From: Chrysophaeum taylorii
Lineage: Eukaryota > Sar > Pelagophyceae > Pelagomonadales > Pelagomonadaceae
DNA length: 64,000 nt
Direction: 5' to 3'
Assembly (NCBI GenBank): GCA_029834535.1
Contig: JAQMWT010000552.1
Coordinates: forward strand, 159,780 to 223,779
The translations under genes and the position numbers were made by a program. The notes under the pieces were generated by a model, which saw nothing but the letters and a program-made list of their open reading frames with translations, was not told the origin of the DNA and searched no databases. Shown in pieces: positions 46,618 to 63,858 of the stretch (position 1 is its first letter; each line of letters begins with the position of its first letter).

Positions 46618-47200
46618 TTATCGGTATTGCGCAGCACGTGTGGGGTAGGGTGGAGTCGTCGACCTAGATGAGTATATCCTCGGGGATGCCGATCGACAGA
46701 GAGCCACGTAGAGCTGGACGTGGCAGAAGACGGGCTTGGGAAAGAGGACGCCGACCTCGCGGGGCGTCTGGCCCTGGCTCTTGTTGATCGTTTGGCGTAG
46801 GCGGGCCTTAAGGGATACAGGTTGGAGGAGCCTCGGTGACAACGACACGATCGATCACGTATCTGATACCGTTGCAGTGGCCGTGCGACGGGTCGAGGTT
46901 TCGAAGACCTTAAGCTCGCGCTCAAAGTCAGCATCCCGTTGGTTGTCAGGGAGTTGAAAACTCTACTGTAAAGAGCGAGGCGTCGTCTTCCGACCCAGCC
47001 TAGTCAGCCGAAAAGAACTCCGACGCCTCGTCTCCGGGAAAAAAAGGCCGAGGTCATGCGCGCGTTGTCAGCATCGACAACATCGTTTCGACGGGGCGTG
47101 AGAATGACGCGGTGAAAGAGCCGCCGCGGGTCGTGGAAATAGTCTGCGAGGTCGCCGTAGACGGCTTGGAGGATCACTGTCTGGCTCTCGCCACAGGGGT
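46618..47200 (-). pseudogene. Decayed PIF1/Helitron-type helicase fragment
   Basis: Three minus-strand segments in different frames match the C-terminal half of PIF1-like helicases, the type carried by Helitrons. From the 5' side, DPRRLFHRVILTPRRNDVVD matches the family's R-a-I-L-t-P-x-N-x-x-V block. Next, LRNLDPSHGHCNGIRYVI matches the L-R-N-x-D-x-x-x-G-x-C-N-G-T-R block. Finally, QTINKSQGQTPREVGVLF then PVFCHVQLYVALCR matches the signature motif VI. The order is correct but the frame changes at least twice and sequence between blocks is deleted, so it cannot be functional. The 5' edge at about 47200 coincides with the start of copia homology on the opposite strand. Confidence 0.82.
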
Positions 47201-47213
47201 ATATATAGCCCCG

Positions 47214-50200
47214 GGCACTCGCACACACCAGGACCGGCATTCCTACCCTCGCCTTTTGGACCGCCTACGCCAGCGCTTCGCCTTCAACAGCAAGACCGAA
47301 CTCCGCCGGCATCTGCACGATCTGTCCTTCGTCTCGTTCGGCACGCCCGACCTTTACCTCGCGGCCTTCGAACGTAACATCACGGCCCTTGAGGCACTGG
47401 GCGACACATTCACCGACACAGATCGCATGCTCTACTTCCTCGAGGGCCTCAAGGGACCCAAAGGGGGAGATGACCTGGCGGAGGCCCACCGTCTTCTCGC
47501 GATTGAGTCCGCCCGGACAGGCACCTCGTACGACACCTTCATTAAGGTCTTCACCATGTACTGCCGCAACGCCGATATCAACCGCGGCAGCTCTCGCGCA
47601 CGCGCCCGCCAGACCGCCGCGCAACCTGCTGACCCGCCCGGCCGCACCACGCTCAACTACGCCTTCCGTCCAGACTGGACCCCAATCCCGTTCTGCAGCA
47701 AGTGCCACGGGCTCTATCACACCGCCCGCATATGCCCTGCCAACATCACGGGCGATATGCCGTGCGGAATCTGCCGCGTCCCCACCCACACCACCGACAA
47801 CTGCGCGCTCAAGACTCCCGGCTGGCAGCCCGGAGACGTCCTCTCGATCCGCGCCCTCCGCAAGTTGAGGACTTTCCGCTCCCGAGACTTGCCACCCGCC
47901 CGCCCGGCCGCGCCGCCCCATCCGGCACCCCCGCCGGCCCCGCAGGCTCCTGAGCCTGCGCCGACCGATGCTGCGGCCGCCCGCCGCACCACCGACGCCT
48001 GTCGAACCGGTTACACCATCGGCGCGCGCGCCTTTATGGCACGCGGCATCGAGCCACCGTTGGTCTCTCTCAGCGCCCTTCACCTGACGTTGACGTTGCT
48101 CTTCGTGGCCGCCGGGGCTTTGCTCGGTCTCTGCCTCGACGGCCGTGTTGCGCTACCCGCTCTCCTCATCATCCCCGGCCTTGCATGCGTCGTCCGCACT
48201 GTCTCATTCCCGACCCTGTGCAGCACCACGGCGCGGGCAGCCCGTGCCCGCGCGGCACCACCAGACGACTACGAGGAGTGGCTCGTCGACTCCGCCTGCG
48301 ACAACCACACGCGGCCCGAGTACAGCACGGTGGTCTCCTATACGAAGACGTGGCTGTCCTGGCTCCCGGGCGGCTTCTTCGACGGTGGACGCCACAGCCA
48401 CGCTGTCAGTGGACACGTCATCGAGAACGTCACGCTCCAGACTACGGACGGCCACGTCGACGTCACCATCGCTGCAGCCATTACGCCCTCGCTCCCGTGG
48501 CTCTTCTCGGTCGACCAGTTCGACAAGAGCGGGGGGCGCTTCATCAGCGGGTCGCGCCCTCGCCTCGAGACGAGCGACGGCAAGATCATCCCCCTCATCA
48601 AGCGCGGAAAGGACTACGTGCTCATCACCCGGCGCACGGGGACCGAACCGGCGACGGCCGGCCCTGCGGCCGTCACCGCCACGGCCGTCACCGCCGCGGC
48701 CCCCGCCGCGGCCCCCGCCGCGGCCCCCGCCGCGGCCCCCGCCGCCCCCGCCGCGGCCCCCGCCGCGGCCCCCGCCGCGGCCCCCGCCGCGGCCCCCGCC
48801 GCCTCCGCCGTAGCCGCCCCCGCCGCCCCCGCCGCGGCCCCCGCCGCGGCCCCCGCCGCGGCCCCCGCCGCCGCCGCCGTCGCCGCCGCCGCCGCCGCCG
48901 CCGCTGTCGGTCGCCGGCTCGCGCCGCGCGCTGTCTATGGCTCGGCTTTCGTCTCCTCCCTCGTCGCGACCGCGGTCTTGGCCGGCGCTATGGCTGCTGC
49001 GGCGTCGAGCCATGCCGTTGGGGCGGCCATGCTGCAGCACCCGCGCGCACGGCCGGTCGACCCGGTCCTCATGCCGGGCCTCCGCCTCGACGACGTCAGC
49101 GCCCATCAGATGTTCGGCCACGCCAGCGATGATCGCCGGGACGCCGCCCTGAAGCGGCTCGGCCTTCCCGCTGTCGGGGCAAGCCGGCACCCCATCTGCT
49201 GCACCCTCGGCCGCTTACGCAAGGCGCCCACGCATTCCACGACGACGAGCGCGACCACGGCACCCGACGGGGCCGTCGTTGAGGTCGACTTGCAAGGCCC
49301 CTTCAACCCGCCGACACTCGGCGGGGCGCGATATGGCCTCGACTTCGCCTTTCGGCGCCCGGCTCGCCTGGCGAGCTCGCTCATTGCCAAGAAAAGCGAC
49401 GCGGCGGGGGAGCTCCCCGTGCTTCTCGCGTCCGCGCGCGCGGCTGGACTGCACCCCACTACCCTCCGCGCGGACCTGGGGGGCGAGCTCGACAACCCGC
49501 ACTTCCGTTCTACGGCAGCCGCCTCCGGCCTCGCCGTCGAGTACGTCGTCCCCGAACGCCACGTCAACGCCGCCGAGAATGCCCACATCCGGATTCTGGA
49601 CGTGGCGCGCGCCAACGACGTCATGGTCCGGAACGTGCTCCATCCCAAATTCTGGGGCTATTCCTACCTCTACGCCGTCCGTCAGGTGAACGTCGTCGGC
49701 GGCTACATCGGCGAGCACGAGGACATTAGCGGCATGGCGCCCTACGGCTCGCTCGTTGCCTACCGCGTCGACGCCGCGAAGAACACCGCACGCGCCTTGA
49801 TCGGGATATACCTAGGATGTCGGCCCGAGGCCGGTCCCGGTGCCGTCTACGTTGTTCCAGCGCCGCGATCGGGCTGCGTCCAGGACGACCTTCGCCTCGT
49901 GCGCACGACCGCGACCGTCCGCTTCCTCGCCGCACCGGGCACGCCTGTTACGACCGACTTGCTCCGAACCACTCTCGACAGCTTGCGTGCAGCGGCCACA
50001 GCCCCGCTCGCAGACGCCGACGCCCCGACGCCGCCACCGCCCCCACCCCCTACCTTGACCCAAGCCTGCAAGATTGCGCAGGCGTACGCGACCGCGACGT
50101 CGGCGGGCGCACCCGCCCCCGACCACGCCCCGCTACCGGGCCCGGGCTTGTTCGACGACGATCAGGACCCTGCCCTTTGGCACGAGACGCCGCCCTCGAC

Positions 50201-51926
50201 CTTCGTCTTCGACTACAGATCCCCCGACCCGACGGCCCCCCGATCCCTTCGGGAGGCCCGTGGTCGCCCGGACGCGCCTGGCTGGACGGCGGCCGTCCTC
50301 AAGGAACACGGCGCCTTCTTCCAATTCGAGGCCATCCGCGTTGTAGACGCCCGTGACGTCTCTGATGACGCCGTGGTCGTCGGCTGCATTACCGCCCTCG
50401 CCGTCAAGCGCGATGGCACGCCGAAGGTTCGCTTCTGCTACGACGGGGCTCAAGCCAAACGGACCGAGACTGCGCATGCGCTCGCCGTCCCGGAGGACCA
50501 CGACGATGCGCCTTGCACCGTCACTGCGGTTTCACCCTCGTACGCGTCGCCATGCGCTGACAACAATGCCGTGCTCGTCTTCGTGGCCGTCTGCAACCGC
50601 TACGGCTATGTCGCCTGCGCTGGGGACGCACGGTGCGCCTACCTCCAATCTCACCCACTCCTGCCTCATGAGCGCCGCTACATGCGCCCGCCTCGCCACA
50701 TCGGCGACTACATGGCAGACCTTCCTCCGGACCAACACTACGACCCGGCTCGGTCGCTGTGGCTCACGCTCAAGCCTGTCTACGTCCAGCCCCATGCGGG
50801 CCGCAAGTGGTATGAGACGTTCGTCGAGTACCTCGGCCTTCTTGGCTTCCTCGAATCACCGTAACACCCCTGCTTCTTCTACCGCTATGAAGATACTGGG
50901 CCGCCGACGGTACTCATCAGCGTTGTCGGCAACATTCCGCTCGCGGGCCAACCGGACGCCGTGGCAGAAGTACGCGCTGCGCTCAGCGACCGTTTTGTCA
51001 TGACGTGGGAAGACGTCGCTCACGACATCTGCGGCATCACCCTCGACTACCGTGCCGATGGCTCGGTCTTCGCCCACCAGCGCCCGTACATCGACAAGGT
51101 CCTCGGTCACCTCGGCTACGGCTCGATCACGGTCGGGCCTGCCACACCGATGCACCTGGACTTCAACGTCGACCCCCACGTACCCGACAAGACGGCCGAC
51201 AGCGGCGACATCCGTACCGCGCTCGCCATCAACCCACGCGAGGCCCTTGGTCTGCTCATGTTCACGCGGGCGACGTTGCCCACCTTCGCGCGCACGGTTC
51301 ACGTCCTGGCCACCGCCGTAAACGTGTGGTCCAAGCGCCACGCTCGGGCCCTCGACCGTGCCCTGCGCTGGCTCGCGGCTCACCGAGACCTTGGCATCCT
51401 GTTTTCTGCTGCCTACCAAGGCGCCTTCCACCTCTCTGCTTATGCGGACGAGAGTCTTGGCTGTGAGCTCGCTCGCGGTGCGCACGGCTCTGCCCTCTCG
51501 CGCCTCGGTGGTGCCGTTCTCCTCCAGGGGGGCTGCGTCTCCGGGGCCAGTCGGCGCGTCTCTGCGACATGCCACAGCACGCCTGAGATTGCCGTCTTAG
51601 CCCTGTCTCACACTGTCCGTCGCCTTCTTGGCGTGCGCCACCTCATCCAGACCCTCGAAGGGGTCCGGCCGCCTCGCACCACGGTCTGGTGTGATAACCA
51701 ACCGGCACTGAAGATCGTCCGTCGCCGTCTTCTGTCGCCTAACTTGCGCCATCTGCGTATCGCCCTCAATTCCCTCATTTGCGCAGTTGATACGTACGAC
51801 TGTGCCTACAAGTACGTCAAGACCAAGCTCAATTACGCCAACGTCTTCGTTTCCAACGAGGACGCTGACCTCTTCGACCGCGATACTGCCTTCCTCACCG
51901 GTCATGTCACCCCTGACCTCTCCTAG
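47214..51926 (+). mobile_element. Ty1/copia retrotransposon, 5'-truncated and inactive
   Basis: Domain order gag, protease-like, integrase, reverse transcriptase, RNase H defines Ty1/copia. The left end abuts helicase sequence at about 47200-47214 without a visible LTR. The right end after 51926 could include a 3' LTR remnant up to 52244, where the gypsy element begins, but I could not define it. The element is much more GC-rich than the gypsy element beside it. Confidence 0.85.
47214..51926 (+). pseudogene. Copia gag-pol polyprotein, with stop codon and altered catalytic motif
   Basis: The frame stays the same over about 1,570 codons but has an in-frame TAA at 50862-50864. Gag has a zinc-knuckle-like cluster (FCSKCHGLYHTARICP and CGICRVPTHTTDNC). 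The protease site reads WLVDSAC instead of the usual D-S/T-G-A. A long Ala/Pro tract (48690-48905) separates it from the pre-integrase and integrase, whose triad D (VDLQGPF), D (RADLGGEL) and E (NAAENAH) is visible. Reverse transcriptase blocks surround GDARCAYLQSHPL and, past the stop, HPCFFYRYEDTG; the position expected to hold YVDD reads ISVVGNIPLAG (50919-50951). RNase H shows SAYADES and TVWCDNQPALK. With no YVDD and a stop codon, it cannot reverse transcribe on its own. Confidence 0.85.
48690..48905 (+). repeat. GC-rich Ala/Pro-coding minisatellite inside copia
   Basis: Variants of the 12-base unit GCGGCCCCCGCC are repeated about 17 times. They encode alternating A-P-A-A blocks between the protease-like region and the pre-integrase domain. 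This is likely length-unstable and prone to assembly error. Confidence 0.9.
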
Positions 51927-52244
51927 ACTCCTGGAGAGGTCCTACCTCGCTCTGCTCTTGTTCTTTCTTTTTCGCGCCCTTCCACGGCGCTTCGCTCCTT
52001 TCACGTGCCTCCCGCAGCCCTCTCTTCGCACCTGATTGCTTCGCTGGATGGGGAGGCACCAGCCTGTCCCAGTGACACGCCACTGACACACCACGCACGC
52101 GCCACGCACGCGCCACGTCGCCTGTCCTGACACTAGGTCACATGCCACGTTCACTTCATACACACATGACACTCATGCGCTCGCGCCTACCTGATCCTTA
52201 CTCTCGCGCCTACCTTATCCTTACCCTAAACCGAGGGACAAACT
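51927..52244. other. Copia 3' flank / possible LTR remnant
   Basis: No open frame of note. It contains CACGCACGCGC-type short repeats and a tandem CGCGCCTACCT(G/T)ATCCTTAC (about 52186-52224). It ends with AAACT (52240-52244), the left target-site duplicate of the gypsy element. Confidence 0.5.
52240..52244. other. 5-bp target-site duplication (left)
   Basis: AAACT immediately left of the gypsy LTR equals AAACT at 61769-61773 immediately right of the other LTR. Gypsy integrases typically duplicate 5 bp. Confidence 0.85.
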
Positions 52245-52468
52245 AGTGGCGTTTTTTTAGGGGCTACCTGGCGTGCCTTCGAATCCTGGCTCGCCGCTCG
52301 CGTCCGTGCCCTTGGTGGGGTCACTGGACGAGGATGGCCGTTCTCCCGCCGCCCGACCACAAACAACTCCCGTGCCTGGTCCTCACAGCTTGAGGACTGG
52401 CTGTTGCTTTATGATCAAGGATATATCGAAAATCGGAAATCGGGGTGACGCATGTCACGGAAAAGGGA

Positions 52469-52498
52469 GATGATGTCATAGAGAACACTGACATCATC
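52469..52498. promoter_or_regulatory. Inverted bZIP-like sites conserved in all LTRs
   Basis: GATGATGTCA and TGACATCATC, separated by 10 bases, form a perfect 10-bp inverted repeat. The same pair sits at 61662-61691 and 62411-62442 in the other LTRs although the spacer has diverged. TGATGTCA/TGACATCA resemble CRE/bZIP sites, so this may be the LTR enhancer. Confidence 0.55.
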
Positions 52499-52554
52499 AG
52501 AACGGAGTAGGGCGCCCCTGATAAGGGGGGGGGCTAAAGGAGGGGTAAGCCTTA

Positions 52555-52817
52555 GGTAGGGTCGGATAAGAAAGTTCATACGAGCCGTTAACTATGTTTC
52601 AGTTTGTACTAAGACATACTCAACGGATCGCTGAGCTATGTTCATTTGTACTCAAGCAGTATGTGCCGCCACGCCGCGAGATCGTCGCGATGGAACTAGT
52701 CCCCATAGTGAAGTCGGCATCCTTTCGTCCCCTCACGCAAAAAAAGGGAAAAGCCCACGCGTTGTAGGACCCGTCGTTGCGGCGCGGGCTAGTCTCGTTT
52801 TCTTATCCGACCCTACC
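52555..52817. mobile_element. 263-bp MITE with 19-bp perfect TIRs and TTA duplication
   Basis: It begins GGTAGGGTCGGATAAGAAA and ends with the exact reverse complement TTTCTTATCCGACCCTACC. TTA flanks both sides (52552-52554, 52818-52820). The other LTR of the same element has the uninterrupted sequence GCCTTAGGAGGCGGG (61741-61755), an empty site proving insertion. No coding capacity. A 3-bp TTA duplication suggests mobilisation by a PIF/Harbinger-type transposase (inference). Confidence 0.92.
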
Positions 52818-52882
52818 TTAGGAGGCGGGAGTTGCCGCCACAGGACTCCCCTGGTAAGAATTCGAGCTGCCCCAGCGAGGTG

Positions 52883-53335
52883 CTAGCGCGAGGAGCGCGG
52901 CTTCGCCTTACGAGCATCTCGTGAACGAATCTTCTGGTAAACGCGGGTGATGATCGGCTCAGGAACTCGACCACTGCGTAAAGTAAACTTGGGTATCAAC
53001 ACATCAATCTCGTGCGGAGCGAAATCCGCGACACAAGGAGTTGTGTTGGAAGAAACTCTGGACTTGTCGGTGAAACTTCGACCTTCAACGTCCTTGAACT
53101 CGGGCTTGAGCTTGCGGTGCGAAAGGTGGGAGGTCGGCTTGAAATAAGCGACATCATCGTTCGGACCTAAATCGGAATAGAAATGTAGAGCAACACGATC
53201 ATTTTGGTAATCGTAAGGCTCGTAAACTTCGGCAACATAAATCTTCTTGCGCCAATCAGAACGCTTCCGGTCAGGAATCCGGAAAACAACAAACTTACCG
53301 TGCTGATAATCATCACGGAAGGTTTCTTCGGGTTT
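52883..53335 (-). other. C-terminal extension of Pol after integrase
   Basis: About 150 residues beyond the integrase GPF region contain FRDDYQHGKFVVFRIPDRKR, then KKIYVAEVYEPYDYQNDRVA, LHFYSDLGPNDD and a basic tail. The spacing of strands around V-x-E-V-x-E...V-A-L-H-F-Y resembles SH3-like barrels (chromo-, BAH- or Tudor-type readers) that direct gypsy integration, but I cannot identify the family. Confidence 0.4.
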
Positions 53336-56300
53336 GCGGATAGTTTGATCGACGATCGGAGGTACCATCACAGGCGTGATCTGACTGACATGAACACGTC
53401 GTTTTTCGGGCGGAGAGTCGAGAGACTCGATCCTATAGGTGACCGGGGAGAGGCGTTCCTTGATAATAAACGGCCCTCGCCATTCCGGTCGAAGTTTGTT
53501 CTGAAGGAAAGGAATGTAGAGCAAAACGTGCGATCCTTCCTTGTATTCAACATCAACATGATCAGCATTGTAAGCCAATCGCTGTTTCTTCAAAGCTTTA
53601 TCACGAGCCTCGCGGACGATCTTCGTATAATACTTCAATCGTTCACGAGTTTCGGCAACTGCATCAGAGCGAGTCTCCGGCAATAATCGTGTATCAAAAT
53701 CCATGAGCGTGTAGTCAGTCGGTAGCATCGGCTGACGGTTCAGGCGCAGCATAAAGGGAGAAATCTGCGTGCCTGGAATAAACTTGCGGTTGTAGCAAAA
53801 CGCAATATAATGACCAAAGTCAGGCCAATCCGTGATGTTCCGGCCTTGAAGGCAAGCACGAAGGAAGGCCTTGATAAATCGGTTGACACGCTCAGCCGGG
53901 TTCGACTGGGCATGATAAGGAATCGTAGTTTGGTATCGTGTGTTGAAGAAATGACAAAACCTGCGCATCAACTTGTTCACGAACTCTTTACCGTTGTCGG
54001 TACGAATCATCTGGGGCAAGTAGCCCTTGAGGAGGATGTTAATGACAAAAGACTCGAGGACAGACTCAGCAGTCTTATCGTTCAAAACATCCAGAATCAA
54101 GAAATGCGAGAACGGATCAAAAAATACTAGAAGATGCGTCTCGGGACCAGCGCTTGGCAAGGGTCCAAATAAATCCATGCAAAGAACAGCACAATCACCG
54201 TCGTAGACGGGCTGCTGCAAGAGTCCAGCTCGTTTCGGCTCAGGCGTGCGAGCTTTCTGGCAAACTAAACATTCAGCAATGAAGACTCCAACTTCGTTCG
54301 ACATGTGAGGCCACCAAAATCGTTCTTGGATAGCCTGGACGGTACTGTGACGTCCCATATGACCACCGTTAACCGGAGTGTCATGGTAGAGTCGAATAAT
54401 TCGCTTGCGCAACGTAGCAGGTGCAACAATCATCGGGTGCAAATCAGCAGAAATGCGGTAAAGAACATCTTTAGCGACTTCGAATCGTTCGTTCGCTCGG
54501 GAACGTCGCGGCGTCTGACCTTGGGCCATTCGGTGGCGAATATCCTCGCAAGTAGCATCAGATTCTTGCTCACGTGCGATCTCAGCGAGCGTCATATTAT
54601 CGGGTATCTTATCGATATAATCTTTGGAAGCGGCTGCGTCCTTTAAAATCTGTGGCTCATCACGCGCACGGTTCTTCCGACGTTGTCTCGTAGCGTGAGA
54701 CGTAGCCAATTTCATCGGATCCTTTTCAGGGTCTTCGTCTCCGTCTTCCGGCAGTTCGGTCGTAATAAACGACATTATGAAGTGGCAGCCGGAGACGGGA
54801 ACTCCTCGGTCATCAACAGGTCGGGGAAGCTCTTGGAACACAAAATACGCGTCGTTCAAAGGTTCTCCAAACTCGTCAGTCTCGATGACATGATCTATCG
54901 GGTTGCGGGAGAGACAGTCAGGGATACTCATTCCCGGTGACTTTCCCGGCTTGTGACCAAGTTCAGGGTCAAAATTGGCGAGGCGCATCGCCCAACGAGC
55001 AAGCTGCCCAGACGAGTGCGCCGCCTTACGTAAAAACGTCAAATTTCGGTGATCGGTCTCCAAAACAGTACGGTGCCCTTCGATGTAGGCTCGAAAGTGC
55101 TCTAGAGAAAGTATAACTGCCAGCAGCTCTAGCCGACGGGGCTCATAATTCCGCATCTCCTTCGGCACAGCTCGGCTCCAGTATTCAGTTACTCGTTCTT
55201 CTCGAGTCACTCTTCCGGCATCGTCCTTGACTTCGACAATCTGGAAGAGATATGCTCCAAGTCCATCCTTGGAAGCATCGGATCGGATCTGAAAAGGCAG
55301 ATCATAATCGGCGTGGTAGACTCCACGGGAATCAACCAAAGCTTCAATAATCGTATCCCAAGCTTTCTGACACTCGGGCGTCCACTCGAACTTTACACCT
55401 TCGAGGCATAATCGTCTCAACGGTTCCACAATCTTCGAGTAGCCCTTCACATATCGCCGGCAGTAATTACTCATGCCGATGAAAGAGCGTATCTGGGTCT
55501 TCGGGGAAGTATTCGGTAAAGTACCTGGAATCGGCATCTTCTGCAGTGCTTCCAGCGTCTTCGGATTCGGCTTCAAGCCTTCTGGGGTAGAAATGTGTCC
55601 CAGAAATTCTATATCATCCTTGAGAAGGTGGAACTTCGAGGTTCGACCGCTGTACCCTCTCTGTGCCAAATGACACATCACTTCGATCAAAACTTGTAAA
55701 TGTCGATGAAGATCGTCGGATCCCATCATAATATCGTCAACAAACGCAACCAAGTCTTGATACATCCATTTCGAAAGGTCGCTCGCCATTTGCTTGCAGA
55801 AAAGAGCTCCGGCCGTCTTCACACCTAGAGGTAATCGCAAGAAACTGTGAGCGCCAAGTGGGCTAACCATCGTGACAGCGTCCTGCGCTGCCGGATCCAG
55901 ACGAAGGTTGTGGTATCCCCATCTAATATCAATGCATGTCCGCCATCGTCTCATCGCGAGAAAGGCTAAAGCATCATCTTGTCGAATGTTTGGCCAACTG
56001 TCATTGACCAATTGATCGTTGAGCTGACGTAAGTCAACTGCAGCACGGAACGCGTTTGACGTTCCAATCTCAGCTCCTTTCTTCGGAAGCATCAACACAG
56101 GAAAGCCCCAAGGTGAGTTGGCCGGACGAATGACTCCATCCCGGCACCACTCGCTGATCTGCTTGCGGAGACAATCGAGCTTCGCAGGCGTCAATCGGTA
56201 GGGCGTCATCTTTATCGGTCGCGGATTCGCGTCTTTGGATCGTAGAGACACAGGAGGCGAGTCCACAGGTCTCATAATCGGGTCGAAAAAGGCCCAAGAA

Positions 56301-58582
56301 TATTGCATACAGTGACGGAGCATCAGTTTCGCCTCGTCATCTAAGTGCGGATTGTCAGGAATTCCCAGCTCCGGCACAACCTTGTCAACTTCTTCCTTCG
56401 TAGGAATTTTAACTTTCATTGCTTCGTTGTCCTTGACATGCTCAGGAGTCTGCGGCAGTGGTGCACCCTCGGCATCGCGCGGCGCATCTTTCCATGGCAC
56501 ATCAAACTTTTTCTCATATTTTAGTCTCACTTCCGGGTGGCTTTTGTTGATCCTCTCGCCTTTGACACGAACAATCGGCTCGCTCTTAATCTTCGGTTCC
56601 TGATCTCGCTCAGGATCTGGCGGAACGTCTAAATTTGGTTGTCGGGGGGGGGCAGCAGAAGAAGCATGAGACGTCCCCGGCTCATCTGTTGCAGGCGGAA
56701 TCAACGGTACCTCTGGAGGTTTCCATTTGGTGCGATCTTGGAGATCATCAGTCGACACCCATCTTACGACACGTGTGCGCGTGTTTAACAGCGGAGCTTG
56801 TACGTGACGAAGGGTGGTTTCATCAATTTGCAAATAATAATCAAACGGTCGGTCTGCAGGACTCAACGCTGACGGCAAAGCTTCGCCGCTCAGGTGAAAT
56901 TCCTTGGTCACAGAGTTGTGCAGATCGAGCACTAATAAGGCTATCGTGTCAGGTGGCACGACGGACGCCAAGTGTTTCAACGAGGTCGTCCTGGAGAAGC
57001 CGGCCCAATCAAAATCAGGGGGCATCGTCAGCAACTCCGAAGTCATTTTCAGATTCAGAGATCTGTAATCGGAACGGTGCGGTCCTACGCGAAGCGGGAC
57101 ACGCGTAACGGTGTAAGCTACGTCTGTCGCGGCTCGTGATGATCCTAAATTGTTCATCTGAAGTAAATGTCGTTCGTCGGCGTAGCCAAGTGCTGCGGCG
57201 AACTCTTGCTGCATATTCTTGCAAGTCTTTGGAACTGCGCGCAAATGGAGCGGATGGCTGGAAACCAACAAGCGCACGCGACAGCTCATCAAATTGGGAG
57301 TTATGTCGTAAAAATTGACGACGTACACGTAAGGGTGCAAACGTGCAACGTAAGAAATAATCGAAGCCTCCTGCTCTATCAACCACATGAAGAAACCAGC
57401 CATCTTGCATAATTTCATCGTCCAGTGGGTAGCGGTAACTCCTTTCCCAACATCTCTGGAGGTCAAGTTGCACAGAGCGGAGTGTACGCAGGGTGGCGAC
57501 GCGACACACATCGACGACGACCATTCCGCGTAAGGTAAATAAGATTCGATCAACCGTAAGGTTGTAACATAGCGACCACATAGTGTGTGCTGCACCACAG
57601 GAATATTCGGAAAGTTCTTGTGGTGGATCTGGTTGGCGGTGTCCGACGCATCGAGTGCTAGCACGACTCGAAACGACGTCCCACACGTTTCGTTGGCTCG
57701 TTGGAGACCCAAAGTACTGCCTCCGACTCCACTGAACAGCATCACCACCTTGCGATAAGTGATTGGAAGCCATTGAACCTCTTCATATCGGCGGCGGATC
57801 TCCGCTTCCGTGATCTCGCGGCATTTCTTTTCATCTTCTTCTGACCTTCGAGCGAAAATCAACTGATCTTTGGCCAACTTTTTGACCATTTCTCGGCAAA
57901 TATAAGAAACATCTGCCATACCATCGACACCGATGGTCGTCGAGAATTTCGGTCCGTAACGATTCCTGTAGATGTGACAGGCCATAAACGTAAGAGTACC
58001 CATATCTAAACGACTGAGGGTAACCAAATCATCTTCGATCGTCTTGCCGTCTCGCGGCGTCAACGAAGTGTGAGCACATCGGGCTCTGACTCGCTCATCA
58101 CCTGGGTTGGGCATCGATACCTCGGCTTGAGCTTTCATATCATCTGTTGTTGGCGTCTTCGCCATAACGTTCGCGTCAGCCTCTTTATCTGGCGGCTTCC
58201 GCTCTTCCTCCAAGACAATCTCCGAGGGAGTAAACGCTGGTAGGGGATCCTGGTCTTCGTAATCCTTGGAAGCAAACGACCCCTCCCATAAATCATTCAT
58301 TTCGTCGTTCCAGAATGCATCTGTGAATTCATTCGTCGCCTGCTGATCCTCATCAGCATCGGCGATCGGTTCCGTGTCAGCTGCGGCTTTGAGTCTGCAG
58401 CTGCGCGGTTGTTCTGGTGGCTTCTTTAGCAAGAAATTCTGAGTTCTCGTCCACCAATCCTGCAGGTTCGAAGTTGGCTCGTCTTCGTCCCACTTGAGAA
58501 CGCTGCTAATCTTCTTCTTAAATCTATCCTTTTCTTCCGGCGGCGTATACGTGGCTCGATTCGTAGTAACCGAAACCGTTTG
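52883..58582 (-). CDS. Gypsy Pol polyprotein: DNA methyltransferase - reverse transcriptase - RNase H - integrase - C-terminal module
   Basis: The open frame begins inside a G9/C9 homopolymer (58582-58590) and runs about 1,900 codons to a TGA at 52883; no ATG start is evident, so it is probably made as a fusion with the upstream Gag frame. In order: an acidic linker; a C5-cytosine DNA methyltransferase (56903-57760); a Pro-rich linker; reverse transcriptase (about 55580-56215; MTPYRLTP, LRQLND, LPLGVKTAG, FVDD at 55733-55744); RNase H (about 54908-55300; SDASKDGLGAYL, ELLAVILSLEHFRAYIEG, ETDHRNLTFL); integrase (about 53873-54361) with HHCC zinc site (H-x3-H-x25-C-x2-C) and D-x58-D-x34-E triad (LCMDLFG, IRTDNGKEF, NPAERVNR) and a GPF motif (WRGPFIIKE). 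The extra C-terminal region is about 150 residues. A canonical D-T/S-G protease site is not evident. All catalytic residues of reverse transcriptase and integrase are present. Confidence 0.92.
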   Translation of the reverse strand, partial: QTVSVTTNRATYTPPEEKDRFKKKISSVLKWDEDEPTSNLQDWWTRTQNFLLKKPPEQPRSCRLKAAADTEPIADADEDQQATNEFTDAFWNDEMNDLWEGSFASKDYEDQDPLPAFTPSEIVLEEERKPPDKEADANVMAKTPTTDDMKAQAEVSMPNPGDERVRARCAHTSLTPRDGKTIEDDLVTLSRLDMGTLTFMACHIYRNRYGPKFSTTIGVDGMADVSYICREMVKKLAKDQLIFARRSEEDEKKCREITEAEIRRRYEEVQWLPITYRKVVMLFSGVGGSTLGLQRANETCGTSFRVVLALDASDTANQIHHKNFPNIPVVQHTLCGRYVTTLRLIESYLPYAEWSSSMCVASPPCVHSALCNLTSRDVGKGVTATHWTMKLCKMAGFFMWLIEQEASIISYVARLHPYVYVVNFYDITPNLMSCRVRLLVSSHPLHLRAVPKTCKNMQQEFAAALGYADERHLLQMNNLGSSRAATDVAYTVTRVPLRVGPHRSDYRSLNLKMTSELLTMPPDFDWAGFSRTTSLKHLASVVPPDTIALLVLDLHNSVTKEFHLSGEALPSALSPADRPFDYYLQIDETTLRHVQAPLLNTRTRVVRWVSTDDLQDRTKWKPPEVPLIPPATDEPGTSHASSAAPPRQPNLDVPPDPERDQEPKIKSEPIVRVKGERINKSHPEVRLKYEKKFDVPWKDAPRDAEGAPLPQTPEHVKDNEAMKVKIPTKEEVDKVVPELGIPDNPHLDDEAKLMLRHCMQYSWAFFDPIMRPVDSPPVSLRSKDANPRPIKMTPYRLTPAKLDCLRKQISEWCRDGVIRPANSPWGFPVLMLPKKGAEIGTSNAFRAAVDLRQLNDQLVNDSWPNIRQDDALAFLAMRRWRTCIDIRWGYHNLRLDPAAQDAVTMVSPLGAHSFLRLPLGVKTAGALFCKQMASDLSKWMYQDLVAFVDDIMMGSDDLHRHLQVLIEVMCHLAQRGYSGRTSKFHLLKDDIEFLGHISTPEGLKPNPKTLEALQKMPIPGTLPNTSPKTQIRSFIGMSNYCRRYVKGYSKIVEPLRRLCLEGVKFEWTPECQKAWDTIIEALVDSRGVYHADYDLPFQIRSDASKDGLGAYLFQIVEVKDDAGRVTREERVTEYWSRAVPKEMRNYEPRRLELLAVILSLEHFRAYIEGHRTVLETDHRNLTFLRKAAHSSGQLARWAMRLANFDPELGHKPGKSPGMSIPDCLSRNPIDHVIETDEFGEPLNDAYFVFQELPRPVDDRGVPVSGCHFIMSFITTELPEDGDEDPEKDPMKLATSHATRQRRKNRARDEPQILKDAAASKDYIDKIPDNMTLAEIAREQESDATCEDIRHRMAQGQTPRRSRANERFEVAKDVLYRISADLHPMIVAPATLRKRIIRLYHDTPVNGGHMGRHSTVQAIQERFWWPHMSNEVGVFIAECLVCQKARTPEPKRAGLLQQPVYDGDCAVLCMDLFGPLPSAGPETHLLVFFDPFSHFLILDVLNDKTAESVLESFVINILLKGYLPQMIRTDNGKEFVNKLMRRFCHFFNTRYQTTIPYHAQSNPAERVNRFIKAFLRACLQGRNITDWPDFGHYIAFCYNRKFIPGTQISPFMLRLNRQPMLPTDYTLMDFDTRLLPETRSDAVAETRERLKYYTKIVREARDKALKKQRLAYNADHVDVEYKEGSHVLLYIPFLQNKLRPEWRGPFIIKERLSPVTYRIESLDSPPEKRRVHVSQITPVMVPPIVDQTIRKPEETFRDDYQHGKFVVFRIPDRKRSDWRKKIYVAEVYEPYDYQNDRVALHFYSDLGPNDDVAYFKPTSHLSHRKLKPEFKDVEGRSFTDKSRVSSNTTPCVADFAPHEIDVLIPKFTLRSGRVPEPIITRVYQKIRSRDARKAKPRSSR
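56903..57760 (-). other. C5-cytosine DNA methyltransferase domain inside Pol
   Basis: About 286 residues carry the ordered DNMT motifs. Motif I: VVMLFSGVGGSTLGLQRA (57710-57745), the S-adenosylmethionine loop. Motif II: VVLALDASDTANQIHHKNFP (57605-57667). Motif IV: VASPPCVHSAL, catalytic Cys codon at 57488-57490. Motif VI: an E-Q-E at 57368-57376 in place of E-N-V. Motif VIII: CRVRLLV (57263-57283). Motif IX: TSELLTMPPDFDW (about 57005-57043). Motif X: KHLASVVPPDTIALL (about 56930-56977). The catalytic PPC and the FxGxGG loop are intact, so activity is plausible; the target-recognition region between VIII and IX is short. Such domains methylate cytosine in DNA; an RNA target is less likely but not excluded. 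Confidence 0.88.
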
Positions 58583-60665
58583 GGGGGGGGTCCGCAGGAA
58601 AAGATGGCGTCGTCCCCGACGCCAACTCTATCGTAAAATCGTCGTCTGCATTACTCGCGCTGGCCATCGTCTCGTCAGTCGAATGCGCGTACGAGCTATC
58701 ACTGCAGAAATCCATGTCTGGCTCACAGCCAGTTCGGTCGCCAGCGGTCGTCTCTGGAGGGTCCAAAGATAGGCCGATGGCATCGAGGGCTTCCTCATCA
58801 GAAATAAACGGTGGGTCGTCCGTGGACGACTCGTCAAATAAGGTTAACGCGGACACTGGTTCACAAAGTGTAGCTTCTTCATCTTCCGAATCTGAATCGC
58901 CTTCCCAGTATCGTGGAGCTTCAAGTTCCTCGCTCGAATCTTCGAGCTCATCGCTCGACATCTGCTCATAAATCTGTGCCAAAGACCGACGATTGGTCAG
59001 CACGTCGTTGGGTGGCTCGTCCATCGGCGGGCGAGCAAAATCTTCGAATGCGGCCGCGGCAAGGGCGTCGGCTGCGTCGTCGGTGCGGGTGTCCGTGTTG
59101 GGGTACACCATCACTCCTAATGGTAACTGTTGACCGCAAGGGGTCGTAAACGTGAGCGTTGCGCTCAAAAAACCCGAATTATATTGGTGTCGGCCTCCGT
59201 CGTATTCATCGTCGCGCGATCGGCGTCGTCTGTGCCGGCGCGAACTTCGACTGGGGCTCTTGTTATCTTTGTCTCTCTCTGGCGTCAGTTCGGCAGGTCC
59301 TAGTACCTCTGGATCATCCCTGTAGGCGACTGGTGCTCCCAAGTCTATCCGAACTGTCTCAATAGTCTTGTCTATCGAAACATCGACACATGCGTCGTCT
59401 TCTTGCCAAAACTCCGACCAAACGTAAATTAAATCTCGGTTGGCGAATAAATCCGTGCCTCGGGGTCGGAATTGCACTTCTTTCCGCTCTGGCGGTTTCT
59501 TCCTCAGGAAACAGTGAGCTCGTATCCTTATCGTCGGTACGCTCATCTTCCTATTATCCATGCTGATCGTCCCATCCAAATTCGATTCCGGGCGGCCGCT
59601 ATACTCATCCCTCATAGTATGTTCGGGATCTTTCTTTTTCACGTAGCCATCATCATATGCAGGCTGAAAATCTTTGAACTTTTCGTTCGTGAGTAATACG
59701 CCAGGGCTTTCACTGAGCTCTAAAGGCAGTTCATGCGTTATAAGATTCTTCATCTCTTCCGCTTTCGTATTCATTTTCTCGGCCGTTTCACTCGGCCTAT
59801 CATCCACTCCATCGCTTCGAATATCGGCAATCGCCTCGTCACTAAAAATGTCGACACATGAATTGTCTGCCATCGTCAAAGGGAATAAAACATCTGCAAA
59901 AACGTCTGCAGTCGGTTCGTCGGGGGGCCCTGCAAAAGAAGAAGGCTTCGTCCCTGACGTCATATCTGTTAGAAACTGGCCACCAAAGGGCACGTGACGT
60001 TCGATGGGTGTGTACTCAGGTGCGCGCTTATCATTCGAGGTAATCCTCTGCGACGCATCGTCGATCGATCGTGGAGGCGAAGTGCCATCCACTTGAATGT
60101 CCGGAGGTAAACTCATAGCATCGAGCGTAGCAGCGGCGGTTCCCTTACTTTGGGCGTCATCGGCTGCACGGGGCTCGTAAATCGGATTCACACATAACTC
60201 CGGCGCGTCGTCAAAACCGAGGGTTGTGTCAGCTGACGACAAATCCTTTCGTGCCACCAACGGTGACACCGGGTTAGAAGCGGTTGCTGGCTTCGACCCG
60301 TAGGTTAACGACGTTTCGGTCAAATTCTCCGATTCTGTGGGGATTTTGGTTTGGGTGAGCTCCTTCGACTTGGATTGCTCTTGATCGTAGTTTAACGACG
60401 TTTCGGTCATCTCGGACGACTCGTCGTCGTCGTCGCGCGGCTTCCTGACTATCGCTCGCGTTCGCGTGGGCGGCGGTACCTCCGAGGGTCGGAATTCTCC
60501 CTTGAGACTGCTCGTTCGCCTCGGGCGACTCGGCATGCGCAATTCATCTCTTTCACGTGTCAACGAGCTTACTTGATCTTGGAAGGCGTCTGCTCGAGCG
60601 TTGGCCATACGCAGCTGCTCTCGCATTATATTTATCTCATTCCGGTGTATCGATTCACGCCGCAT
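58524..60665 (-). CDS. Gag-like acidic protein of element A, upstream frame
   Basis: The 713-residue frame starts at the ATG at 60665, but the frame is open about 60 codons further 5' (to about 60848). It begins with a coiled coil (REQLRMANARADAFQDQVSS, LTRERDELRM), conserved in element B at 63537-63600, then is mostly acidic and Ser/Thr-rich, with a late basic patch (RSSRRHRRRRSRDD). I see no zinc knuckle or typical capsid motif, so 'Gag' is assigned by position only. It ends at 58524, while the Pol frame (+1 relative) is open across 58433-58582; the frames overlap at a C9 run (58582-58590). One base fewer in that run would make one continuous Gag-Pol frame. Confidence 0.7.
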   Translation of the reverse strand: MRRESIHRNEINIMREQLRMANARADAFQDQVSSLTRERDELRMPSRPRRTSSLKGEFRPSEVPPPTRTRAIVRKPRDDDDESSEMTETSLNYDQEQSKSKELTQTKIPTESENLTETSLTYGSKPATASNPVSPLVARKDLSSADTTLGFDDAPELCVNPIYEPRAADDAQSKGTAAATLDAMSLPPDIQVDGTSPPRSIDDASQRITSNDKRAPEYTPIERHVPFGGQFLTDMTSGTKPSSFAGPPDEPTADVFADVLFPLTMADNSCVDIFSDEAIADIRSDGVDDRPSETAEKMNTKAEEMKNLITHELPLELSESPGVLLTNEKFKDFQPAYDDGYVKKKDPEHTMRDEYSGRPESNLDGTISMDNRKMSVPTIRIRAHCFLRKKPPERKEVQFRPRGTDLFANRDLIYVWSEFWQEDDACVDVSIDKTIETVRIDLGAPVAYRDDPEVLGPAELTPERDKDNKSPSRSSRRHRRRRSRDDEYDGGRHQYNSGFLSATLTFTTPCGQQLPLGVMVYPNTDTRTDDAADALAAAAFEDFARPPMDEPPNDVLTNRRSLAQIYEQMSSDELEDSSEELEAPRYWEGDSDSEDEEATLCEPVSALTLFDESSTDDPPFISDEEALDAIGLSLDPPETTAGDRTGCEPDMDFCSDSSYAHSTDETMASASNADDDFTIELASGTTPSFPADPPPNGFGYYESSHVYAAGRKG
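58582..58590 (-). other. C9 homopolymer at the Gag/Pol frame junction
   Basis: Nine Cs on the coding (minus) strand sit where the Gag frame leaves and the Pol frame begins. With eight Cs the two frames would be continuous and no stop would intervene. This is either a programmed frameshift site, an indel mutation or a homopolymer sequencing error. Confidence 0.7.
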
Positions 60666-60676
60666 CTCTTCTTCTA

Positions 60677-61381
60677 TCAGCTGGGTGGGGATTTCTTGTG
60701 CGCGCTTATTTTCTCGGCGTATCTCGCGTAAATGGGCTTTGTAAATCTTTGCAACATTCGGTGGTTCATCACCTCGCGCACGTTCTGGATGGGCTGCCGG
60801 TCGTCTCGCCGGCGGCGCCCTCGGCAGTTCATCGCCGTAGTAGTCAGCTCTTCTTCCTCATTATCATAATCAGTATCATCGTCATCGTCCCCCTCGCTCG
60901 TCTCATCCTGACGGCTTGGCGGTTCGTCATATCGTAGCTGCTCGACGGCAGCATCATCGTCTTCCATATCGGCTCTGGCTCGTTCTAGTCGGCCGAGATC
61001 AGAGCGGGTCCAAAATGGTTGAGTCGTCTTCGTTCTCGTGCTCCTTCGATTGTGGAACTTCTAATCGTCCACGACACGCGTAATATCGTCGTTGCGTGCG
61101 TCTTCCACCGACAAATCTATCCGTACGGTGGGCGGCAGAACTCGTCTCTGCCCGGCAAACAATGCCTTATCCGTGAGTTGCGATCTCACTCCGCTCGCCT
61201 GCGGCAGCGGTACCCGGGTTGCGCGTCGGTTAGCACCAAATCGCGCGTCGTCACTTCCGACGACTAACGTATCCGGCCGGGGAACTTCCCCACGGCAATG
61301 GACCTTCTGGAATTCCTTGTCGGCGCGCTTCATCAGGGCGCGCACGGCTTGTCCGGACCGTGTAGAGAATGCAAGATGCAC
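60677..61381 (-). pseudogene. 5' part of Gag of element A, interrupted frames
   Basis: An ATG frame from 61381 (MHLAFSTRSGQAVRALMKRA) ends at TAG (61061-61063); the same frame then stays open through FWTRSDLGRLERARADMEDD into the acidic stretch ending near 60848 (EEEEL), where the sequence appears to lose one base relative to element B. Element B has the same TAG and the same following peptide. The A4 run at 61012-61015 is A3-equivalent in B, again changing frame. The gene may therefore be decayed, or the breaks may be shared features or sequence errors. Confidence 0.6.
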
Positions 61382-61402
61382 TAGTTCGCTGCGACCGATA
61401 TA

Positions 61403-61431
61403 GTCGCTCGAATCTCATATCCTCCACCACC
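61403..61431 (-). other. Primer-binding-site candidate of element A
   Basis: Inside the 5' LTR edge (61432), the plus strand reads CGAATCTCATATCCTCCACCA then two bases and the LTR. That equals a tRNA 3' end: T-loop-like TCGAATC, T-stem and acceptor strands, and terminal CCA. The coding strand is thus complementary to a tRNA 3' end over about 20 bases. I could not identify which tRNA. Confidence 0.55.
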
Positions 61432-61768
61432 TGTGGCGTAAGGAGAATTTCAGGGGCTACCTGGCGTGCCTTCGAATCCTGGCTCGCCGCTCGCGTCCGT
61501 GCCCTTGGTGGGGTCACTGGACGAGGATGGCCGTTCTCCCGCCACGCGACCACAAACAACTCCTGCGCCTGGTCCTCTCAACTTGAGGATCGGCTGTTGC
61601 TTTATGATCAAGGATATATCGAAAATCGGAAATCAGGGTGACGCATGTCACGGAAAAGGGAGATGATGTCATAGAGCACACTGACATCATCAGAACGGAG
61701 TAGGGCGCCCCTGATAAGGGGGGGGCTAAAGGAGGGGTAAGCCTTAGGAGGCGGGAGTTGCCGCCACA
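61432..61768 (-). repeat. 5' LTR of element A, 337 bp
   Basis: It runs TGTGGCG...CGCCACA in plus orientation, with 7-bp terminal inverted repeats and TG/CA ends. It pairs with 52245-52842 in the same orientation and, inverted, with 62334-62676 of element B. Confidence 0.9.
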
Positions 61769-61773
61769 AAACT
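61769..61773. other. 5-bp target-site duplication (right)
   Basis: AAACT, identical to 52240-52244 on the other side of element A. Confidence 0.85.
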
Positions 61774-62333
61774 CGCCCGTCCTCTCTTCGCCTGCCCCAC
61801 GCCTCGGCGATGACCCCGACTAGGCCCCGCGTACTTATCTCCGCCCGTCAGGCACATCCCTCATACCCCACAAACCCACCCACATCCTTCATGCTCCCCA
61901 CACACACCCCCCTCTTAGCTAAGTAACTAACTAACTTCAGCCCTCTCCCGAGCATGGGGGCCAGGCCGGACCGACAGGTGCCAGTCCGGAATCACGGGCC
62001 TGTAGACGAGGAGTGCCGAAAGGTCGGTCGGCAGAGAGTGACCATCAAGCTTGTCGCCATGCGACGAGGAGACCGCGATGTGACTGACAACCAACTCGTC
62101 GATAACCTTCCGTCTTCGCCCCCCGGCTATACCCCCCTCTTAGCAGTCGACATTTAAAGACAAACTCGCACATACGTCCGGCGGCAGCATGCGTACGACC
62201 TACGGGCGGGGCCCGTCCTCTCTCCGCCTGCCCCACGCCTCGGCGATGACCCCGACTAGGTCCCAGTACTTATCTCCGCCCGTCAGGCACATCCCTCATA
62301 CCCCACAAACCCACCCACATCCTTCATGCTCCC
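61774..62333. repeat. Dispersed repeat R, two direct copies between the gypsy elements
   Basis: GTCCTCTC..CGCCTGCCCCACGCCTCGG through CATCCTTCATGCTCCC occurs at about 61777-61900 and again at 62209-62333. A third fragment (CCCTCTTAGCAGTCGACATT) lies at 62133-62155. Related copies are at 4640, 43875(-) and 44679. No gene is supported in the 560 bp. Confidence 0.75.
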
Positions 62334-62676
62334 TGTGGCGGCAACTCCCGCCTCCTAAGGCTTACCCCTCTTCTAGGGCCCCCCTTATCAGGGGCACCCT
62401 ACTCCGTTCCGATGATGTCAGGGAATTCTCTATGACATCATCTTTCTTTTTTCGTGACGCACGTCACCCTGATTTCCTATTTTCGATATATCCTTGATCA
62501 TAAAGCAACAGCCGATCCTCAAGTTGAGAGGACCAGGCGCAGGAGTTGTTTGTGGTCGCGTGGCGGGGGAGAACGGCCATCCTGTCCAGTGATCTCCCTC
62601 CAAAGGCACGGACGCGAGCGGCGAGCCAGGATTCGAAGGCACGCCAGGTAGCCCCTGAAATTCTCCTTACGCCACA
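62334..62676 (+). repeat. 5' LTR of element B, 343 bp
   Basis: TGTGGCGGCAACTCCC to CTTACGCCACA, with TG/CA ends. It includes the GATGATGTCA / TGACATCATC pair at 62411-62442. It has no MITE at the TTA site. Confidence 0.9.
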
Positions 62677-62678
62677 GG

Positions 62679-62702
62679 TGGTGGAGGATATGAGATTTGA
62701 GC
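62679..62702 (+). other. Primer-binding-site candidate of element B
   Basis: Two bases after the LTR, TGGTGGAGGATATGAGATT is complementary to a tRNA 3' end (CCA terminus), matching the site in element A. Confidence 0.55.
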
Positions 62703-62729
62703 GACTATATCGGTCGCAGCGAACTAGTG

Positions 62730-63858
62730 CATCTTGCATTCTCTACACGGTCCGGACAAGCCGTGCGCGCCCTGATCAAGCGCGCCGACAAGGAATTCCA
62801 GAAGGACCATTGCCGTGGGGAAGTTCCCCGGCCGGATACGTTAGTCGTCGGAGTGACGACGCGCGATTGGTGCTAACCGACGCGCAACCCGGGTACGCTG
62901 CCGCAGGCGAGCGGAGTGAGATCGCAACTCACGGATAAGGCATTGTTTGCCGGGCAGAGACGAGTTCTGCCGCCCACCGTACGATAGATTTGTCGGTGGA
63001 AGACGCACGCAACGACGATATTACGCGTGTCGTGGACGATTAGAAGTTCCAGAGTCGAAGGAGCACGAGAACGACGACGACTCAACCATTTGGACCCGCT
63101 CTGATCTCGGCCGACTAGAACGAGCCAGAGCCGATATGGAAGACGATGATGCTGCCNNCGAGCAGCTACGATATGAAGAACGCCAAGCCGTCAGGATGAG
63201 ACGACGAGCGGAATGACGATGATGATAATGATGGACGATGAAGAAGAGCACGATACCGAAGTTGACGAGGAAGAAGAGCTAGACTACAACGACGGCAAGC
63301 CCACGGAGAGACCGACGGGAGGACGATCGACAGCTCCGTCAACGCGTGCAGTACCCCGGACCCAACGATAATGAAAGAGTTCTACATGAGGCTCTCTTGC
63401 GGGCATTACGCGAAGAGAACGAACGCGCGCAAGAAGAATTTGAAAACAATTGGGGAAGAGAACGAACGAAAAGAACGGTACAACGGAAGGAGAAAGAAGA
63501 AGAATTAAAAGAGCAACGGCGGGTGGGCCAACGCTCGAGCAGACGCCTTTCCAAGAGCAAGTAAGCTCGTTGACCCGTGAAAGAGACGAGTTTCGTACGC
63601 CGAGTCGATCAAGGCGAAGCGAGCAGCCCGGAGTCCCGAGCTGAGGAAGAGCCGCCGACTACACGATCACGCGCGAAAGCTAGGAAGCCGCGCTATGAAG
63701 ACGATGATGAAGAAGAAAGGAGGAGACGCAGGCGCCGGAAGGATCGACACCCAAGAGTTCTTGATGGGTTTTACGGATCGACCGCGAGCGCGTTAGCTAA
63801 ACACGATCGCAACAAGGAGCGGCGATCAACCTCTGGATTAAAAACCGAAAATTTTTAA
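62730..63858 (+). pseudogene. Gag-like region of element B, multiple frame breaks
   Basis: HLAFSTRSGQAVRALIKRAD in the first frame, then WTRSDLGRLERARADMEDDD, an acidic EEEEL stretch, REENERAQEEFENNWGRERT and QVSSLTRERDEFRTPSRSRR follow the order seen in element A but in changing frames. Single-base deletions relative to A (for example near 62850 and 62868) and the N pair at 63157 break it. The region 63577-64000 is more diverged from A. Confidence 0.65.
63157..63158. other. Undetermined bases (NN)
   Basis: Two N bases within the Gag region of element B mark uncertain assembly in this repeat. Confidence 0.99.

Follow-up and report, generated by a model that had tools for sequence, protein, structure and literature searches.

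A Ty3/gypsy LTR retrotransposon of the pelagophyte alga Chrysophaeum taylorii carries within its Pol polyprotein what is almost certainly a real C5-cytosine methyltransferase (MTase) domain held under selection. The element occupies the reverse strand of the 64,000-nucleotide stretch of DNA that we analysed (the window) and belongs to Ty3/gypsy by the reverse transcriptase (RT)–RNase H–integrase order of its domains, its paired LTRs and an AAACT target-site duplication, with one extra domain before RT (Table 1). The original prediction, a Ty3/gypsy element in which one frame encodes a C5-MTase ahead of RT, is borne out by a 1914-aa pol frame with the domains in order; the MTase domain lies at the coordinates given there, and the integrase resolves into Integrase_H2C2 (residues 1403–1461), rve (1481–1572) and Integrase_p58_C (1718–1749) sub-domains. 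Three features go beyond that prediction: a split between the gag and pol frames, a nested MITE-like insert in the 3′ LTR with the 7-bp repeat CCTTAGG on either side, and a Ty1/copia family with a C5-MTase of its own. The outer end of the 3′ LTR reads AGTGGCG and its 5′ LTR counterpart TGTGGCG. The gag and pol frames of this copy are offset by 1 base and overlap by 104 nt; in two other copies of the gypsy family the open frame around the MTase runs to 3063 and 3067 aa, which shows that the family includes longer frames without a break. A Pfam search with the 777-aa presumed gag frame returned no match, and pol gave no Pfam match to an aspartic protease. A D-G-M-A motif at pol residue 235 was considered as a protease candidate and rejected because its conservation among copies is incomplete (present in 29 of 37 aligned stretches, missing from the rest). 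Pol residues 150–280 (about window 57788–58180), just upstream of the MTase, evolve fast, with a dN/dS of 0.53 between copies of subfamily A (see below), and occur in versions that differ between copies.

Table 1. Coordinates of the element and its parts in the window.
Feature	Position	Strand	Details
Ty3/gypsy LTR retrotransposon, whole	52245..61768	-	9.5 kb with nested insert; LTR pair, ends, flanks, pol domains
5′ LTR	61432..61768	-	TG...CA ends, by eye; 278 nt at 96% to 3′ LTR
3′ LTR	52245..52842	-	split by insert 52557-52815
MITE-like insert in 3′ LTR	52557..52815	.	259 bp, inverted ends (TAGGGTCGGATAAG)
Target-site duplication AAACT	52240..52244	.	3′ LTR side
Target-site duplication AAACT	61769..61773	.	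5′ LTR side
Presumed gag frame	58524..60857	-	777 aa; upstream of pol
pol frame	52883..58627	-	1914 aa stop to stop; Pfam domains
C5-cytosine methyltransferase domain	56903..57751	-	pol residues about 293-575
Reverse transcriptase RVT_1	55592..56086	-	pol 848-1012; PF00078 E 3.2e-12
RNase H	54971..55384	-	pol 1082-1219; PF17919 + PF17917
Integrase zinc-binding + core	53912..54421	-	pol 1403-1572; PF17921 E 4.2e-18, PF00665 E 1.9e-10

Several profile libraries identify the extra domain. The PF00145 search proposed with the original prediction gave 20.7 bits for the whole polyprotein, under the 22-bit cut-off, and 26.9 bits (E 4.2e-6), above it, for the 320-aa domain alone; all nine gypsy copies scanned match, and the Pfam alignment of the domain covers motifs I–II only (residues 13–69). 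Two PADLOC DruM2 models matched at E 3.1e-9 and 8.2e-9 and align domain residues 13–110, with the second model aligning best at residues 193–295. Profile–profile alignment to 43 viral and bacterial C5-MTases covered residues 13–108 (E 1.2e-9), with a weak colinear second match of residues 236–289 to motifs IX–X (probability 13%, E 0.0022), these E-values referring to a single comparison and not to a database. Because of these Pfam, DruM2 and profile–profile matches, the assignment of motifs I, II, IV, VI, VIII, IX and X in canonical order is supported, more weakly for the C-terminal ones. AlphaFold2 reached a pLDDT of 31 from the single sequence, too low to be of use, and a second model was built with 43 distant C5-MTase rows; the predicted fold agrees with bacterial and viral C5-MTases. 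The domain thus resembles these enzymes, among them DruM2 and type II MTases, in best profile matches, motif order and predicted fold, but departs from them in sequence (about 15–23% identity in a 44-row alignment), in a motif VI of E-Q-E in place of E-N-V, and in a short recognition region. The earlier description of the MTase as complete holds for its motifs and less well for this recognition region, a stretch of about 65 residues that separates motif VIII from motif IX and is modelled with low confidence. Searches of approximately 5.8 billion proteins, a collection that may hold few eukaryotic transposons, found no match to the domain or to pol residues 270–600 (E 0.01) or to a nine-row alignment, A1 (E 1), and A1 and pol found no relative in viral contigs. 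Phages and plasmids yielded one and three weak matches, respectively (E 0.01–0.1), annotated as DNA or DNA cytosine methyltransferases.

The further copies that the original prediction proposed to look for are plentiful. At least 125 matches to the domain, some partial, were scored among 1031 candidates in the 70.8-Mb genome (at least 134 of 1130 for RT); among the matches listed, 103 share 86–100% identity and 22 share 78–82%, and 100 of the 125 are free of stops. Of 30 subfamily A copies, 29 have RT at the MTase locus, and RT lies next to the MTase in all four subfamily B copies with flanks fetched. These many genomic copies and the RT on the same loci exclude the assembly chimera against which the original prediction had cautioned. 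A whole-polyprotein Pfam score under the cut-off could still be read as a chance motif match, but two subfamilies with RT alongside, purifying selection, agreement among several profile libraries and the fold make chance or chimera vanishingly improbable.

Comparison of 30 copies of subfamily A with four of subfamily B (for RT, 29 A copies; for RNase H, 26) gave a median dN/dS of 0.066 for the MTase (dS 1.73), 0.026 for RT (dS 1.56), 0.021 for RNase H (dS 1.80) and 0.124 for the linker (dS 0.95); when 11 copies of B were used, the MTase gave 0.064. By this sequence measure, constraint on the MTase is weaker than on RT and stronger than on the linker. The MTase divergence time is about the same as that of RT, so the domain was already in Pol before subfamilies A and B split. 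Within subfamily A, the whole MTase has a pN/pS of 0.17 compared with 0.31 for RT; because the A copies were chosen as the best MTase scorers, our argument uses the A–B comparison only. The motif IX–X stretch (pol 520–570) has a pN/pS of 0.64 within A and a dN/dS of 0.11 between subfamilies, a hint that it may be relaxed within subfamily A.

Across 42 aligned rows, residues Cys100, Glu138, Gln139, Arg170, Arg172, Pro278 and Pro279 are invariant, with the PPC cysteine of motif IV, the motif VI glutamate and the motif VIII RxR present throughout, and Pro99 and Glu140 are each lost in a single row. Motif VI reads E-Q in all 42 rows with a third residue E in 41, and the canonical ENV is absent, which confirms the unusual E-Q-E motif pointed out in the original prediction. 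Replacement of Asn by Gln and of Val by Glu across the family, the relaxed C-terminal stretch within subfamily A and the missing CpG footprint described below would be compatible with a pseudo-enzyme that binds AdoMet or nucleic acid without methylating and has a structural or decoy role. Unchanged catalytic positions in every row (the cysteine of PPC, the Glu of motif VI and the two Arg of motif VIII) and the dN/dS of 0.066 argue against such a pseudo-enzyme, which we regard as quite improbable.

A CFT stretch before motif IX is a hallmark of DNMT2, a tRNA methyltransferase. The host DNMT2-like gene (L031) encodes 360 aa with CFTKSYGRY and lies beside a light-harvesting gene whose best matches are chlorophyll a/c- and violaxanthin-type antenna chains; the CFT stretch is absent from the gypsy domain. 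The host DNMT5-like gene (L032, L163) combines MTase and SNF2 in one long frame, and Pfam finds no SNF2 in gypsy pol. At E 1e-12, in a search that reads no introns, only these two host genes match PF00145 in the genome. Profile comparison of the gypsy domain gave a weak match to host DNMT2 (probability 48%) and no similarity to the host DNMT5-like MTase in a single-sequence comparison. By the CFT, SNF2 and profile tests the domain appears to be neither DNMT2 nor DNMT5. In a 49-row tree the gypsy domain, the copia domain and host DNMT2 all form long branches; the gypsy branch, at 5.9 changes per column, agrees with the divergence noted in the original prediction. The independent acquisition suggested there is likely, but the tree leaves the domain on its long branch with its origin not placed.

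Resemblance to DNMT2 bears on the possible substrate. The best PDB sequence matches of the domain are DNMT2 (E 0.009–0.3), Foldseek places DNMT2 chains among its best matches to the predicted fold, and a CpG footprint is absent, as might be expected if the domain methylated RNA, for instance the genomic RNA of the element or the tRNA that primes it, and thereby protected that RNA or tuned priming; RNA methylation is also raised for SymbioLINE-Dnmt (PMC5890265). The DNMT2 sequence match is, however, limited to motifs I–II, the CFT stretch of the host DNMT2-like protein is missing, and bacterial DNA C5-MTase profiles outscore host DNMT2 against the gypsy domain, leaving an RNA substrate unlikely.

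We propose that a C5-MTase domain was taken into Pol before the two present subfamilies split and has been kept by purifying selection. Made as part of (Gag-)Pol, it would be packaged with RT and integrase, bind AdoMet through motifs I–IV and, with the PPC cysteine attacking cytosine, methylate element nucleic acid, most likely fresh cDNA, before or at integration. The methylated new copy might then pass as host DNA or be handled differently by the host methylation system, to which the DNMT5-like gene would belong. Methylation of element cDNA, the same role as proposed for the dinoflagellate elements, is the likeliest of the readings considered and has in our estimate about an even chance of being correct. 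In its favour are the domain family, the invariant catalytic residues, the low A–B dN/dS, the mostly stop-free copies, the place beside RT and the precedent of SymbioDIRS-Dnmt3, whose domains carry out de novo CG methylation in yeast (PMC5890265). Against it stand the lack of a consistent CpG footprint, the motif VI change from Asn to Gln, the pN/pS of 0.64 in motifs IX–X within subfamily A and the inactivity of KnitGypsy-Dnmt3 in yeast, where the SymbioLINE domain also showed no activity, a result that the authors call inconclusive.

Deamination footprints give no support to self-methylation as put forward in the original prediction. CpG observed/expected (o/e) is 1.23 in pol and 1.25 in the element, against 1.29 for the host sequence within the window, and C–T change over all sites is 0.036 at CG, 0.035 at CHG and 0.034 at CHH. 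CpG transitions at fourfold sites in subfamily A are 0.060 vs 0.069 on one strand and 0.055 vs 0.039 on the other, and in subfamily B 0.106 vs 0.064 and 0.055 vs 0.097, mixed signs that show no consistent CpG transition excess in the element. The CTG–TTG rate is raised, which probably reflects synonymous Leu codons. Leaning the other way, CpG o/e is 0.85 in the 5′ LTR (338 nt; small sample) compared with 1.29 for host sequence, and 1.03–1.08 in three copia-family loci (also a small sample) compared with the same host part of the window. The missing CpG footprint would fit a non-CpG context, an RNA substrate, efficient repair or methylation confined to cDNA that does not last; it would also fit activity lost through E-Q-E, against which the invariant Cys and Glu speak. 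The domain might instead modify or restrict nucleic acid outside the element, for example that of invading DNA viruses or of host genes, to the indirect benefit of host or element. PMC6338049 advances this idea for transposon methylases, and DruM2, a bacterial defence C5-MTase, is among the best profile matches here. Yet DruM2 profiles describe a common enzyme family and are silent on role, and no companion nuclease is seen in the element, so we consider such a target very improbable.

A second methylase occurs in a Ty1/copia family of the same genome. PF00145 matches the genome at 57 loci, two of which are host genes; 30 of the 57 were fetched, and all 28 non-host loci among them (L033–L060) have one common MTase domain, which belongs to a dispersed family. 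In the one copy whose frame was followed (L047 487–3423 with L073 1–2952), the frame spans 1952 aa, and the MTase is followed by a weak integrase match that falls below the cut-off (E 0.003) and then by RVT_2 (E 3.6e-39), the integrase-then-RVT_2 order by which the sequence is classed as Ty1/copia. All 29 rows (the 28 loci plus a reference, itself one of the 28) retain PCQ, EN and the motif VIII Arg, and all but one retain the Val of ENV; a dN/dS of 0.16 indicates purifying selection. This family resembles the gypsy element in being an LTR element whose pol frame includes a C5-MTase under purifying selection, but differs in its RVT_2 reverse transcriptase and its usual PCQ and ENV motifs. No profile similarity between the copia MTase and the gypsy domain was detectable, and the two look like separate captures, with rapid divergence from one source also possible. 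Tentatively, and with more doubt than confidence, we suggest that Ty3/gypsy and Ty1/copia elements each captured a different C5-MTase and kept it under selection in the face of a host barrier to unmodified cDNA, the E-Q-E enzyme perhaps acting in an unusual sequence context, on an unusual substrate or by an unusual chemistry, and so without a CpG footprint. If true, the convergence of two superfamilies would point to such a barrier.

The retrotransposon–DNMT precedent invoked in the original prediction is right and closer than stated, since KnitGypsy-Dnmt3 of Klebsormidium nitens, an LTR Gypsy element, already has a DNMT within Pol (PMC5890265). Like the element described here, KnitGypsy-Dnmt3 is multicopy and its Pol frame includes a C5-MTase on which purifying selection acts (Ka/Ks < 0.2, compared with 0.066 between the subfamilies of the present element), but according to the legend of Fig. 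4 of that paper it has a Dnmt3-type domain and a DIRS-like repeat arrangement, whereas the present element, compared by description, has ordinary LTRs, a motif VI of E-Q-E and no established Dnmt3 kinship. SymbioDIRS-Dnmt3 and SymbioLINE-Dnmt of Symbiodinium likewise have C5-MTases in retroelement coding regions, many copies and purifying selection, but are DIRS and LINE elements and not LTR gypsy, and the CpG depletion reported for SymbioLINE (PMC5890265) is absent from pol here. PMC12344493 lists DNMT3 in 'LTR Copia' and DIRS elements, citing the 2018 paper, which says Gypsy. Among titles and abstract openings of literature on DNMTs in copia or stramenopile elements, we found no description of this element. 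As far as the literature searched shows, the new features are the host, an alga with light-harvesting genes of red-lineage type, the ordinary form of the LTRs, a domain that the sequence tests described earlier class as neither DNMT2 nor DNMT5, the fixed E-Q-E motif and, in parallel, the Ty1/copia family. Capture of DNMTs by retrotransposons is reported from dinoflagellates and charophytes (PMC5890265), and such elements are rare; another alga, a divergent domain and two superfamilies with dissimilar C5-MTases in a 70.8-Mb genome would turn an oddity into a repeated outcome. With two families, more than 100 copies, a small genome, natural variants and a readable methylome, why a transposon should methylate itself would become testable.

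The element has further repeats as neighbours in the window. Two long frames of 1286 and 353 aa at 47004–51926 (+) look copia-like by eye and gave no Pfam match at E 0.001. Part of a second gypsy copy lies in opposite orientation (+), with an LTR and adjoining sequence at 62334–63249 (94% over 930 nt) and a further piece at 63510–63626 (+; 117 nt at 85%). Between the two elements, at 61775–61898 and 62211–62333, near-identical blocks of 54 and 68 nt are duplicated approximately 435 nt apart.
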